Assembly (NCBI RefSeq): GCF_000022205.1 | Contig: NC_012029.1 | Coordinates: 2,108,001 to 2,172,000 of the forward strand | From: Halorubrum lacusprofundi ATCC 49239 | Lineage (GTDB): Archaea; Halobacteriota; Halobacteria; Halobacteriales; Haloferacaceae | Direction of reading: 5' to 3' | DNA: 64,000 nucleotides | Shown here: positions 30,350 to 35,270 of the stretch, piece by piece | How positions within the stretch are numbered: the first letter of the stretch is position 1 | How the letters are laid out: the number at the start of each line of letters is the position of its first letter | Translations under genes and position numbers: made by a program | Notes under the pieces: generated by a model | Database searches by the model: none | What the model was told of the DNA's origin: nothing | The model's input: the letters and a program-made list of their open reading frames with translations, nothing else

Positions 30350-31261
30350 ATGGTCTCGGATATCTTCGACCCCGATGCGTGGGAGCCGGTCACCGACGAG
30401 TTCGACGACATCACCTATCACCGCGGCGTCGACGTGCCGGTCGTCCGGATTGCGTTCGACCGCCCGGAGGTCCGGAACGCGTTCCGCCCGGGCACCGTCG
30501 ACGAGCTGTACGCCGCGCTCGACCACGCGCGCAAGCAGGCCGACGTTGGCTGCGTGCTGCTCACCGGCAACGGCCCCTCGGAGAAGGACGGCGGCTGGGC
30601 ATTCTGCTCCGGCGGCGACCAGTCGGTGCGCGGCGGCTCCGGCTACGAGTACCGTGACGACGACGAGGCGGGCGACGAGGACGACCCGCTCGTCAAGGAA
30701 GCCCGGGCGGGTCGACTCCACGTCCTCGAAGTCCAACGGCTGATCCGGTTCATGCCCAAGCCCGTCGTCGCGGTCGTCCCCGGCTGGGCGGTCGGCGGCG
30801 GCCACTCGCTGCACGTGATCTGTGACCTCACGCTCGCCAGCGAGGAGCACGCGAAGTTCCTCCAGACCGATCCCGACGTGGCCTCCTTCGACGGCGGGTT
30901 CGGCTCCGCGTACCTCGCGAAGCAGATCGGCCAGAAGAAGGCCCGCGAGGTGTTCTTCCGCGGGAAGACCTACTCAGCCGAAGAGGCCGCAGACATGGGG
31001 ATGGTCAACGAGGCGATTCCCCACGAGGAACTGGAGGAGGTCGCGATCGAGTGGGCCGACGAAATGACGAAGAAGTCGCCGACCGCGATGCGGATGCTGA
31101 AGTACGCGTTCAACATGACCGACGACGGGATGGTCGGCCAACAGGTATTCGCGGGCGAGGCCACCCGCTTGGCGTACATGACCGACGAGGCGCAGGAAGG
31201 CCGCGACGCGTTCTTGGAGAAGCGGGACCCCGAATTTCGCGACTACCCGTGGCACTACTGA
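30350..31261 (+). CDS. menB: 1,4-dihydroxy-2-naphthoyl-CoA synthase
   Basis: 303 aa crotonase-fold enzyme that cyclises o-succinylbenzoyl-CoA in menaquinone synthesis. MenB hallmarks are RIAFDRPEVRNAFRPGTVDE, AFCSGGDQSVRG, VAVVPGWAVGGGHSLHVICD (oxyanion hole region), QTDPDVASFDGGFGSAYLA and the C-terminal YPWHY. An acidic insertion (DDDEAGDEDD) after the GGDQ loop is a halophile feature. Other men genes are not in the window. Menaquinone is the main quinone of haloarchaea. Confidence 0.94.
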   Translation: MVSDIFDPDAWEPVTDEFDDITYHRGVDVPVVRIAFDRPEVRNAFRPGTVDELYAALDHARKQADVGCVLLTGNGPSEKDGGWAFCSGGDQSVRGGSGYEYRDDDEAGDEDDPLVKEARAGRLHVLEVQRLIRFMPKPVVAVVPGWAVGGGHSLHVICDLTLASEEHAKFLQTDPDVASFDGGFGSAYLAKQIGQKKAREVFFRGKTYSAEEAADMGMVNEAIPHEELEEVAIEWADEMTKKSPTAMRMLKYAFNMTDDGMVGQQVFAGEATRLAYMTDEAQEGRDAFLEKRDPEFRDYPWHY

Positions 31262-31287: not shown

Positions 31288-32181
31288 TTACCCGTGCGTG
31301 TACCCACGGTCGGGAAGCGGGTCGCCGTCGGCGGTCACCCCGTCCGCGGCGTCGACGACTCTCCCCACGCGGGTCAGCCCGCCCGGACACGTCTCGCTGA
31401 CGGGCTCGACCGCGTCGTCGGGGAGGGTACAGACGAGCTCGAAGTCCTCACCGAAGTGTGCGGCCAGTTCGAACCGCTCGGCCGGATCGTCGGCGACCGC
31501 GTCGACGGCGGGGTGAACGGGAACGCGGTCGGGATCGAGTTCGAACCCGACCCCGCTCGCCTCCGCGAGCTGGTGGAGTGAGCGCGCGAGCCCGTCCGAG
31601 GAGTCCATCATCGCGGTCGCCCGATCCGCGAGCGCCAGCCCGTCGGCGACGCGTGGCGTGAACCGGAACAGGTCGTTGGCGCGCTCGACCGCCTCGTCGT
31701 CGCCCCTTTTAAACAGCCGGAGCGCGGCCGCGGAGCGCCCCCACTCGCCGGTGACGCAGAGCGCGTCGCCGGGGCGCGCGCCCGACCGCGTGACGACGCC
31801 CGCGTCGGTCACGTCGCCGATCGCGGTCGAGGCCGTGGTGAACTCGTCGTGGGTGTCGAGGTCGCCGCCGACGTACTCGGCGTCGACCGCCTCGCAGACA
31901 TCGATCGCGCCGGCGACGAATCGGTCGAGGTCCCCCTCGTCGAAGGCGGCATCGGCGTAGACCGCGACCGCGGCGGTCGCCGCCGCGCCCATCGCCGCCA
32001 CGTCCGAGAGCGACGCGCCGACCACGCGCCACCCGGCGGTGTACCGCGTCGTCCCGGGCGGGAAGTCGGTCCGCTCGTGGAGCATGTCGGTCGTGATCAC
32101 GGTGTCGTCCACGACGGCGGCGTCGTCGCCAGCGTGCGGGAGATCGGCCGTGAGCGCCCGAAGCGCATCTCGCTCGTTCAC
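31288..32181 (-). CDS. thiL: Thiamine-monophosphate kinase
   Basis: 297 aa from a GTG start; a TATAAT-like box lies about 30 nt upstream. ThiL phosphorylates thiamine phosphate to thiamine diphosphate. Motifs: HAGDDAAVVDDTVITTDMLH at the start, GWRVVGASLSDVAAMGA, EYVGGDLDTHDEFTTASTAI, the SGARPGDALCVTGEWGRSAA strand and MMDSSDGLARSLHQLAEASG. The N-terminal lobe is a little shorter than in bacterial ThiL. It is convergent with menB. Confidence 0.93.
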   Translation of the reverse strand: MNERDALRALTADLPHAGDDAAVVDDTVITTDMLHERTDFPPGTTRYTAGWRVVGASLSDVAAMGAAATAAVAVYADAAFDEGDLDRFVAGAIDVCEAVDAEYVGGDLDTHDEFTTASTAIGDVTDAGVVTRSGARPGDALCVTGEWGRSAAALRLFKRGDDEAVERANDLFRFTPRVADGLALADRATAMMDSSDGLARSLHQLAEASGVGFELDPDRVPVHPAVDAVADDPAERFELAAHFGEDFELVCTLPDDAVEPVSETCPGGLTRVGRVVDAADGVTADGDPLPDRGYTHG

Positions 32182-32216: not shown

Positions 32217-32337
32217 GATCGATCCGGGCGGCGCGGGCTCGCTTCCCGATCGCTCATCCACGATTTGCTGATTGTTACCAAGACCCATTTAAACGAGTAA
32301 TACACATTAACGAATATTATCATTATCAATCATTATG

Positions 32338-32344
32338 TTTATTA
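32338..32344 (+). promoter_or_regulatory. TATA box ahead of the small-ORF chain and isocitrate lyase
   Basis: TTTATTA centred about 30 nt before ATG 32371, in an AT-rich stretch (32270-32350) that contrasts with the surrounding DNA. It is the only clear promoter upstream of isocitrate lyase that I can see, so the lyase mRNA probably carries about 550 nt of leader with three small ORFs. Confidence 0.6.
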
Positions 32345-32370
32345 CTCACCACTCTGACGTACCGAGTGCA

Positions 32371-32472
32371 ATGACAGTATCCGTACACGGACACGCAGCA
32401 GCCCGAGCCGCCGACAGCACGATCACCAGACGACCACCGCAACCACCCACACGACCCGATGACGACACCTAA
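32371..32472 (+). CDS. 33-codon upstream ORF, first of a chain before isocitrate lyase
   Basis: 33 aa starting [16 protein letters not shown] and ending [12 protein letters not shown], rich in His, Arg, Pro and Thr. It starts at the position expected for a leaderless transcript from the TATA box at 32338. Its last 14 bp overlap the start of the next small ORF. No similarity recognised. It may be a regulatory leader peptide or may not be translated at all. Confidence 0.35.
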
Positions 32473-32767
32473 CGACACCACGCCCACCGACGACCCGACG
32501 AATCAGACGGCCCGAACGACCGATCAAACGTCGACCGATCGACGCAACGCCGACACTTCTCCCCGGACGATCCCCGGGCGCACGCCGATCACCGAAGAAG
32601 CGGGCGCCCCGATCGTCCCGACGACACGTCCGACGACAGCGGGGTCGACCGCGACCGACACTCCCCGACGCCCGAGCCCGCCGCCGACCGACGACGAGCG
32701 GGACGCCCCGCTGGTCCCGGACCTGCGACCGACGCGTCGCCCGCGGACCGACGGGAGGTCGCGATGA
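32459..32767 (+). CDS. 102-residue Thr/Pro/Asp/Arg-rich low-complexity ORF
   Basis: 102 aa starting [17 protein letters not shown]. It is dominated by Thr, Pro, Asp and Arg, without hydrophobic core, signal or known motif, and is probably disordered. Third codon positions are mostly G or C, as in real genes here. Its ATG overlaps the previous ORF's end (14 bp) and its stop overlaps the next ORF's ATG (ATGA, 32764-32767), an arrangement typical of translational coupling. It could also be a chance open frame in GC-rich leader DNA. Confidence 0.4.
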
Positions 32768-32916
32768 GCGCCGTTCCCATGGCGGGGACCGGGCGCGGAC
32801 CGCGACCGGACCCGACGACGTTCACGCGGTGTGCGACCGACCAGTTCACCGACGACGCGACCACGCGGATCGACGACACGAGCGACCAGTTCACCGACGA
32901 CGCGACCACGGAGTGA
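32764..32916 (+). CDS. 50-residue ORF with an internal duplicated block, just before isocitrate lyase
   Basis: 50 aa starting [17 protein letters not shown]. The end contains the block [10 protein letters not shown] / [10 protein letters not shown] twice, encoded by 28-bp direct repeats 45 bp (15 codons) apart, so the duplication kept the frame. The tail is acidic like real halophile proteins. ATGA overlap with the previous ORF; its TGA is 5 bp before the isocitrate lyase ATG. Role unknown; a coupled leader ORF is the simplest idea. Confidence 0.4.
32838..32910. repeat. 28-bp direct repeat pair, 45-bp period
   Basis: CGACCAGTTCACCGACGACG plus the next eight bases occurs identically at 32838-32865 and 32883-32910. 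The period is a multiple of three and matches a repeated peptide in the 50-residue ORF. Confidence 0.95.
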
Positions 32917-32921
32917 CACCA

Positions 32922-33965
32922 ATGTATCCCAACGAACTCGACGACGACGTCTTCACGAAAGATATCGATAACCCCGCCGGCCGCCGGCTCCGCGAGCTGT
33001 TCGAGGAGCAGGACTACACGTTCGCGCCCGGGATCTACCACGCGCTCGACGCCCGCCTCGCGGAGATGGCCGGGCTCGACGCCGCCTACATGAGCGGCTA
33101 CTCGACCGTCCTCGGCCAGTTCGGCTTCCCAGACCTGGAGATGGTCACGATGTCGGAGATGGTCGAGAACGCGAAGCGCATGGTCGAGGCGACGAACCTC
33201 CCGGTTATCGCCGACTGCGACACCGGCTACGGCGGCACCCACAACGTCCGCCGGGCAGTTCGCGAGTACGAGAAGGCCGGTGTCGCCGCGATCCACATCG
33301 AGGACCAGACGACGCCCAAGCGCTGCGGCCACATCGCCGGGAAGGAGGTCGTCTCCCAGGAGCAGGCGCGCTCGCGCTTCGAGGCCGCCGTCGACGCCAA
33401 GCAGAGCGAAGACACCGTCATCATCGCTCGCATCGACTCGTACGGCTCCGCCAACGGCGACTGGGAGGACCACCTCGAACGCGGCCGGATCTACGCCGAC
33501 GCCGGCGTCGACCTCGTCTGGCCGGAGATGCCCGACCCGTCGCGCGAGGACGCGATCGAGTACGCCGAGACGATCCACGAGACCCACCCCGATCTGGATC
33601 TCGCCTTCAACTACTCCTCCTCGTTCGAGTGGGGCGCACAGGAGGACCCGCTCACCTTCGAGGAGCTGGGCGATCTGGGCTACCAGTACATCTTCATCAC
33701 GCTGTACGGGCTCCACTCGGGCGCGCACGCCGCCTACGAGGACTTCGCGAACATCGCCGAAAACGACGAGGAGGCGCAGTTCGACCTCGAAGAGCGGTAC
33801 ATCGGCCACGAGACCGAGAGCCACCACGAGCTCTCCTTCGTCCCGCGGTACCAGGACATCGAGGCCCAGTTCGACCCCGACGCCAGCCGGCGCCACGAGG
33901 AGTCGGCCGGCTTCACCGACGAGGAGAGCGACCCGATCACCACCGAGAGCAACGACGACGACTGA
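32922..33965 (+). CDS. aceA: Isocitrate lyase
   Basis: 347 aa, matching the short haloarchaeal isocitrate lyases (about 345 aa) rather than the longer bacterial ones. The catalytic signature is KRCGH with Cys135 ([14 protein letters not shown]). [10 protein letters not shown] holds the metal-binding Asp residues, and IEDQ and SSFEWG follow. The enzyme splits isocitrate into glyoxylate and succinate in the glyoxylate shunt, used for growth on acetate or fatty acids. The acidic tail ends DDD. The malate synthase gene is not adjacent. It is preceded by three overlapping small ORFs; a 20-bp duplication covers its stop codon. Confidence 0.9.
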
Positions 33966-34028: not shown

Positions 34029-35270
34029 TCACCGGTTCGGGATCGCGCCCCGTTTTTTCAGCTCGTTGAGATCGCCGTCGCCGTAGCCGTACTCTCTGAG
34101 GACCGCCTCCGTGTGCTCGCCGAGCGACGGCGGATGCTGTCGGACCGTCGTCGGCGTCCGCGAGAAGTGCATCGGCGACCCCGGCACCCGCATCGGTCCG
34201 GCGGTCGGGTGATCGAACTCGGCGATCATGTTCCGCGCGGCCAGTTGCGGGTCGTCGAACACCTCCGCCATGTCGCGGACGGGACTCGCGGGGACGCCGT
34301 GCTCATCGAGCCGATCGAGGGCGTCCTGCGTCGTCAGATCGGCGAACGCGGCGTCGAGTTCGGGGTCGAGCGCGTCCCGGTTGCGCACGCGCTTCTCGTT
34401 GGTCCCGAACCGGTCGTCGGCCAGCAGGTCGGGGCGGTCGAGCGCCTCACAGAGCCGCGGCCAGAACGCGTCGGACGCGCAGGCGACGACGACGTACCCG
34501 TCGCGCGTCTCGAACGCCTGATACGGAGCGATGTTCGGGTGTTTGCTCCCCATCCGTCCCGGCGGCTCGCCGCTCGCGAAGTAGTTCGCCGCCATGTAGC
34601 TGGTCCATGCAGCCTGCCCGTCGAGCAGGCTCACGTCGATCTTCTGGCCCGTCCCGTCGCCGAGTTCGCGTTCTAAGAGGGCCGCGAGGATCGCCTGCGT
34701 CGCGTACATCCCGGCGCCGATGTCGGCGAGCGCGACGCCGATCCTGACCGGGGGGCCGCCATCGACACCCGTGATCGACATGAACCCGCCGCGCGCCTGC
34801 ATCATGATGTCGTAGGCGGGCTTGTCGCGGTCCGGACCCCACTCGCCGTACCCGGAGATGCCACAGTAGATCAGCTCGGGGTTCTCCGCGGCGAGGTCGG
34901 GGTAGTCGAGGTCCCACTCGGCCATCTTCCCGACCCGGAAATTCTCGACGACCACGTCCGCCTCGCGCGCAAGGTCGCGGAACACCGCTCGCCCGGCCTC
35001 GCCCGCGAGGTTCAGCTCGACGGAGCGCTTGTTGCGGTTGACGCTGGCGTAGTAGGCGCTCTGGGCGCCGTCGCCCTCGCCGAAGGCGGGCGGACGCCAC
35101 GTCCGCGTCTGGTCGCCCTCGCCCGGGCGCTCGATCTTTATCACCTCGGCACCGAGGTCGCCGAGCTGCATGGTGCAGAACGGCCCCACGAGCACCCGCG
35201 AGGCGTCGAGCACGGTGAGTCCGTCGAGCGGTCCCGTGTCGCCGTCGGGGTCGCGCGCCTCACCGACCAC
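34029..35270 (-). CDS. CaiB/BaiF family (class III) CoA transferase
   Basis: 413 aa from GTG 35270. Class III CoA transferases move CoA between carboxylic acids; the catalytic aspartate is Asp154 in KPAYDIMMQARGG. Other family segments are LDASRVLVGPFCTMQLGDLG, EVIKIERPGEGDQTR, NRNKRSVELNL, ADVVVENFRVGKM and DVSLLDGQAAW. The substrate is unknown. Its convergent neighbour is isocitrate lyase, so C4/C5 dicarboxylic acids are a reasonable guess, but no more. Confidence 0.9.
   Translation of the reverse strand: MVGEARDPDGDTGPLDGLTVLDASRVLVGPFCTMQLGDLGAEVIKIERPGEGDQTRTWRPPAFGEGDGAQSAYYASVNRNKRSVELNLAGEAGRAVFRDLAREADVVVENFRVGKMAEWDLDYPDLAAENPELIYCGISGYGEWGPDRDKPAYDIMMQARGGFMSITGVDGGPPVRIGVALADIGAGMYATQAILAALLERELGDGTGQKIDVSLLDGQAAWTSYMAANYFASGEPPGRMGSKHPNIAPYQAFETRDGYVVVACASDAFWPRLCEALDRPDLLADDRFGTNEKRVRNRDALDPELDAAFADLTTQDALDRLDEHGVPASPVRDMAEVFDDPQLAARNMIAEFDHPTAGPMRVPGSPMHFSRTPTTVRQHPPSLGEHTEAVLREYGYGDGDLNELKKRGAIPNR

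Follow-up and report, generated by a model that had tools for sequence, protein, structure and literature searches.

In Halorubrum lacusprofundi ATCC 49239, the isocitrate lyase gene aceA is preceded by a chain of three overlapping small ORFs that are coding, conserved in frame and linked exclusively to aceA, and that carry peptide motifs under selection. On the basis of the window, i.e. the 64,000-nt stretch of contig NC_012029.1 analysed here (positions 2,108,001 to 2,172,000), and of related genomes, we give roughly even chances to the following explanation: one mRNA and a termination-reinitiation relay would produce mostly disordered small proteins that are dedicated to isocitrate lyase and likely bind it. 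Since these proteins were found only beside aceA in the genomes searched, production of the enzyme is probably matched to that of small proteins that partner or control it. Isocitrate lyase is the enzyme that commits carbon to the glyoxylate shunt, and the arrangement, if true, would constitute a protein-level control point of this shunt in haloarchaea. Co-production of a conserved partner with the enzyme could be tested directly by Haloferax volcanii genetics, and it would clearly exemplify a multi-step reinitiation relay.

The small-ORF chain upstream of aceA

All features of the chain lie on the forward strand. ORF1 (positions 32371-32472; 33 codons) is predicted to be leaderless and has a proline-rich end. 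It overlaps by 14 nt with ORF2 (32459-32767; 102 codons), whose product is predicted to be disordered and contains two APLVP-type motifs (copy 1, 32591-32620; copy 2, 32696-32725) with near-invariant columns in the Halorubrum alignment. ORF2 in turn shares a 4-nt overlap (ATGA) with ORF3 (32764-32916; 50 codons), which includes a conserved segment and ends 5 bp before aceA (32922-33965; 347 aa). On re-reading, the coordinates, lengths, overlaps and gap given by the first-pass annotation proved exact. Shine-Dalgarno-like sequences comprise GGGAGGT (32753-32759), located within the end of ORF2 ahead of ORF3, where nearly every Halorubrum locus retains a G-rich stretch, and GGAGTGA (32910-32916), read from the sequence, at the end of ORF3 ahead of aceA. 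ORF3 further contains a 32-nt direct repeat (32834-32865 and 32879-32910), the copies of which are 97% identical, 45 nt apart and in frame.

A TATA-like box (TTTATTA, 32338-32344, plus strand), conserved in Halorubrum, begins exactly where a TATA box had been proposed, 33 nt upstream of the ORF1 ATG. An alternative in-frame ATG at 32335 would extend ORF1 to 45 codons; because this ATG is placed at the TATA element and several relatives (L020, L028, L118) lack it, the 33-codon start is the better one. Also upstream of the chain, on the same strand, is a conserved operator-like element, AATATTATCATTATCAATCATTATG (32313-32337), present as a single copy in its own genome. Scanning positions 32345 to 32930 revealed no A/T run of five or more nucleotides, TTTATTA being the last before aceA, and therefore no second TATA-like promoter is visible, which confirms the earlier view that the lyase has no other visible promoter. 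The chain's neighborhood within the window includes genes for an enoyl-CoA hydratase family member (30350-31261, plus strand), an AIR-synthase-related, ThiL-like protein (31288-32181, minus strand) and a family III CoA-transferase (34029-35270, minus strand).

The aceA product matches the Pfam families ICL and PEP_mutase, scores under the NCBIfam equivalog cut-offs and is 82-83% identical to the enzymes of Haloferax elongans and H. larsenii, with its nearest relatives in Halorubrum. As a member of the ICL/PEP mutase family that is highly identical to its Haloferax counterpart, it qualifies as a haloarchaeal isocitrate lyase of predicted activity. In H. volcanii, aceA is essential for growth on acetate (PMC7746861). 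The Haloferax ace operon resembles the window in its homologous aceA, the same upstream element and two small ORFs before aceA (L048, L138), but there aceA is followed by malate synthase, whereas in this Halorubrum no malate synthase follows aceA. Searching its genome for a Haloferax-type malate synthase returned only a 31% partial match (L246; G000:C2:229054-229554).

Frame conservation and selection within Halorubrum

We matched aceA in 42 of 52 Halorubrum genomes (distantly in G022, partially in G032). The full chain was present at 39 of the 41 aceA loci examined, the two others being diverged (L117) or having a divergent isocitrate lyase (L121), and both the 14-nt ORF1/ORF2 and the 4-nt ORF2/ORF3 overlap were retained in the same proportion of loci (39/41). 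Across these 39 loci, ORF1 spans 31-34 aa, ORF2 93-133 aa and ORF3 27-87 aa, and in 36 of them ORF3 terminates no more than 5 nt from the aceA ATG. The remaining three are L020 and L113, in which ORF3 is divided and its second piece rejoined by a further 4-nt overlap, and L004, which has a duplicated aceA start with N in the sequence; this ~100-bp duplication in Halorubrum kocurii (L004, L072) is possibly an assembly fault.

ORF2 occurs in 23 different lengths, all in frame, and ORF3 in 26. This variety of in-frame lengths was used in place of pairwise nucleotide indel counts modulo 3, which are uninformative because the sequences are repetitive. Frame-disrupting indels, which the first-pass annotation had named as evidence against the chain, were sought in the related leaders, and in-frame lengths were encountered throughout; the few exceptions comprise re-coupled splits, one frameshift and clean loss in some lineages. 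The presence of the chain at 39 of 41 loci, and the recurrence in other genera and families of small ORFs that end at the aceA start, exceed what chance would give.

Selection was assessed across species, which are not independent samples for these ratios or for the presence counts: whole-ORF pN/pS was 0.72 for ORF1, 0.59 for ORF2 and 0.70 for ORF3, as compared to 0.13 for isocitrate lyase, and shifted sense frames gave values of about 1 or more. In 10-residue windows, pN/pS was 0.05 at copy 2 and 0.21 at copy 1 of the ORF2 motif, 0.20 at the ORF3 segment TGDGPRPDPT and 0.29 in a conserved window of ORF1; the linkers were at about 1, and ORF1 and the linkers are under weak constraint. Frame and peptide are thus conserved above the DNA, with strong constraint on the motif windows, in the comparison of synonymous and non-synonymous change that the first-pass annotation had proposed.

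The alternatives that the ORFs are spurious, that the gene lies on the antisense strand or that the leader is a structured RNA are very improbable. G+C-rich DNA has few stops, and the antisense frame that shares third positions, and hence the third-position signal, is open in many species and yields whole-ORF ratios similar to those of the sense frame; whole-ORF pN/pS alone therefore does not fix the strand. However, in roughly one quarter of species or more the antisense frames of ORF2 do not stay open, the start/stop geometry is conserved on the sense strand, and in-frame conservation holds across all ORF2 lengths. A riboswitch or structured RNA leader was rejected, as the leader had no Rfam match at E ≤ 1 and folded no better than shuffled sequences (z +1.31). 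Taken from sequence comparison, the case that the small ORFs encode proteins is strongly supported.

Distribution of the motif proteins and their link to aceA

Reading aceA loci from the 15 genera of the family that have aceA and from other families, we found a small ORF with an xAPLVP motif at about 114 of 139 sampled Halobacteriales loci (presence and absence being scored by regular expressions, partly checked by eye), most of them with a stop no more than 10 nt from the start of aceA. The motif follows the rough consensus E-x-x-[DEG]-A-P-L-V-P-[DF]-[LI] and is present in one or two copies. Variants include ENMDAPLVPFI in Haloferax, two AQxAPLVPD copies in genus g18, ETEAPLCPDL in g26 and, in other families, IENTGLPVVPDL (f12) and DNTGLPIVPQL (f14); an xAPLVP-type ORF also directly precedes aceA in genus g6. 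Several genera add a C-terminal helix, e.g. RRELAALRTQLNRIE, and most genera other than Halorubrum have fewer small ORFs. The last small-ORF stop is spaced at -8 to +10 nt from the aceA start in 101 of 110 loci, where the longest ORF ending near that start was taken and a few may be due to chance. Outside Halorubrum, 62 of 73 loci have a preceding short ORF linked to the motif ORF (a few of these being long chance ORFs), with an exact 4-nt overlap in 31. A further conserved small ORF of about 29-42 aa, containing DxIDDRELSLF, was observed in g6 and g21 (L127-L133, L139, L142, L143). The motif flagged by script in L206 was treated as spurious.

Of the 115 loci scored in this way as containing small ORFs, 81 have the element TATTATCATTA and its flanks ahead of the chain, at -243 to -786 from aceA; in 11 of 24 loci scored as lacking them, the element lies directly before aceA, at -57 to -150. 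As the element is kept in loci with and without the chain, the start of the aceA transcription unit seems conserved, and the small ORFs seem to lie between this start and aceA. Loci devoid of small ORFs include f4, most f5 lineages and two genomes from another genus of the family (L159, L167), indicating that isocitrate lyase works without them. L159 and L167 nest inside the Haloferax-type isocitrate lyase clade yet have no small ORFs, the element being located ~64 nt before aceA with none between; with the promoter element immediately in front of aceA in these two genomes, the chain is no universal requirement. Mapped on a 137-row isocitrate lyase tree, motif presence needs only about three changes, so that the motif is a long-standing feature of certain isocitrate lyase lineages. 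Only two isocitrate lyase columns, both weak, track the presence of the small proteins. Separately, one Halorubrum genome (G029, L121) has another family's type of isocitrate lyase and no small ORFs, and of the two isocitrate lyases in genome G451 (L229, L230) only one is accompanied by a small ORF; these patterns suggest gene transfer.

The association with aceA is exclusive in the genomes searched. A motif-plus-helix profile run against 167 genomes of the family gave strong matches immediately upstream of aceA, its weak matches (E above 0.001) being long unrelated frames. A profile of Halorubrum ORF2, run against 52 genomes, matched beside aceA in 39, detected a remnant beside the partial aceA of G032 and had no match in 11 complete Halorubrum genomes without aceA. 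Plasmid records yielded no tblastn hit to the Haloferax small protein. A genome-wide search for DNA encoding APxVP returned 26 hits (24 outside ORF2), fewer than the 73 for the reversed-pattern control, and none of those 24 resembled the small ORFs.

Probable coupling to aceA and possible roles of the small proteins

In the explanation we favor, a promoter with the conserved operator-like element would start a single mRNA just before ORF1, and ribosomes would load on the leaderless ORF1. Termination-reinitiation would then hand them from ORF1 to ORF2, ORF3 and finally aceA via the overlapping stops and starts, and this coupling would tie the amount of small protein to that of isocitrate lyase. 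The ORF2 and ORF3 products, mostly disordered and with one or two short linear motifs (plus the C-terminal helix in several genera), would most likely bind isocitrate lyase and act in its assembly, localisation or activity control. In vivo translation, coupling and binding are inferences that go beyond the coding evidence and the exclusive link to aceA described above.

Studies of H. volcanii make coupling a likely route to aceA and a binding partner plausible: almost every overlapping gene pair tested showed strict coupling and Shine-Dalgarno motifs had no function in de novo initiation at 5′-UTRs (PMC6728339), coupling dropped to near zero at about 22 nt, and short-spaced pairs were enriched for complex subunits (45.2% vs 5.6%; PMC10666635). 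The window junctions at -4 and +5 nt fall inside the -8 to +10 nt coupling range and the 14-nt ORF1/ORF2 overlap falls outside it. The joins had been described as being of the coupling type, and they do match junctions that couple in haloarchaea (PMC6728339, PMC10666635); from that published work, translational coupling of the chain to aceA is likely. As in the H. volcanii termination-reinitiation pairs (Huber et al. 2019, PMC6728339; 2023, PMC10666635), the host is a haloarchaeon, the junctions are short and on one strand, including 4-nt ones, and Shine-Dalgarno-like motifs lie inside the upstream gene. In contrast to those pairs, the window presents one enzyme gene preceded by as many as three very small ORFs in relay, for which coupling is predicted.

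Could the chain act in cis only? The small ORFs would then set aceA translation by loading ribosomes and passing them on, ribosomes might pause where ORF1 ends in its proline-rich stretch, and the peptides would be functionless. The conserved junction geometry, the PPxPP end of ORF1 common to many genera and the restoration of split ORF3 by another 4-nt overlap fit such a role, but we consider it unlikely, as a relay needs neither a pN/pS of 0.05 to 0.21 in the motifs, nor the same APLVP motif across families in ORFs of differing size and order, nor motif duplication. Conserved peptide motifs, presence in several families, duplication and exclusivity to aceA therefore favor functional small proteins over a cis-only leader. 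Bacterial leader peptides and uORFs are also short ORFs between a promoter and the main gene, but those of the window are longer, several in series and carry motifs conserved across families, and an attenuator or RNA structure was not detected at its leader. Of the leader-ORF control suggested by the first-pass annotation, the real ORFs, their conserved frames and the single visible promoter stand, whereas the overall picture fits protein partners better than a cis-only leader.

Functional small proteins might alternatively have another partner than isocitrate lyase, for example by acting as feedback regulators at the operator. In favor of this, the element has a single genomic copy and the proteins occur only with the aceA transcription unit; against it, family searches found no DNA-binding fold or family among the small proteins, and the element is retained in lineages without them, which renders this option quite improbable. 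Pfam had no match for ORF1-3 and NCBIfam none for ORF2 and ORF3, their relatives giving sub-threshold coiled-coil-like hits only, and the open-access papers searched on small ORFs or glyoxylate control held no report of the small proteins. A likeness of the motif to a 15-residue isocitrate lyase segment scored among the highest of some 11,500 background windows, yet far below true motifs, and was treated as not significant.

Returning to isocitrate lyase as the partner, we tentatively propose, at somewhat less than even chances, that an undescribed family of disordered small proteins binds the enzyme via APLVP and controls or assembles it, with its dose set by the relay from one operator. AlphaFold2 predictions of single chains assigned Halorubrum ORF2 a mean pLDDT of 61.9, with mostly low confidence except at residues 71-90, and placed a helix across residues 50-75 of the Haloferax small protein, where block-wise pLDDT is mostly 73-93, the rest of that chain being of low confidence.
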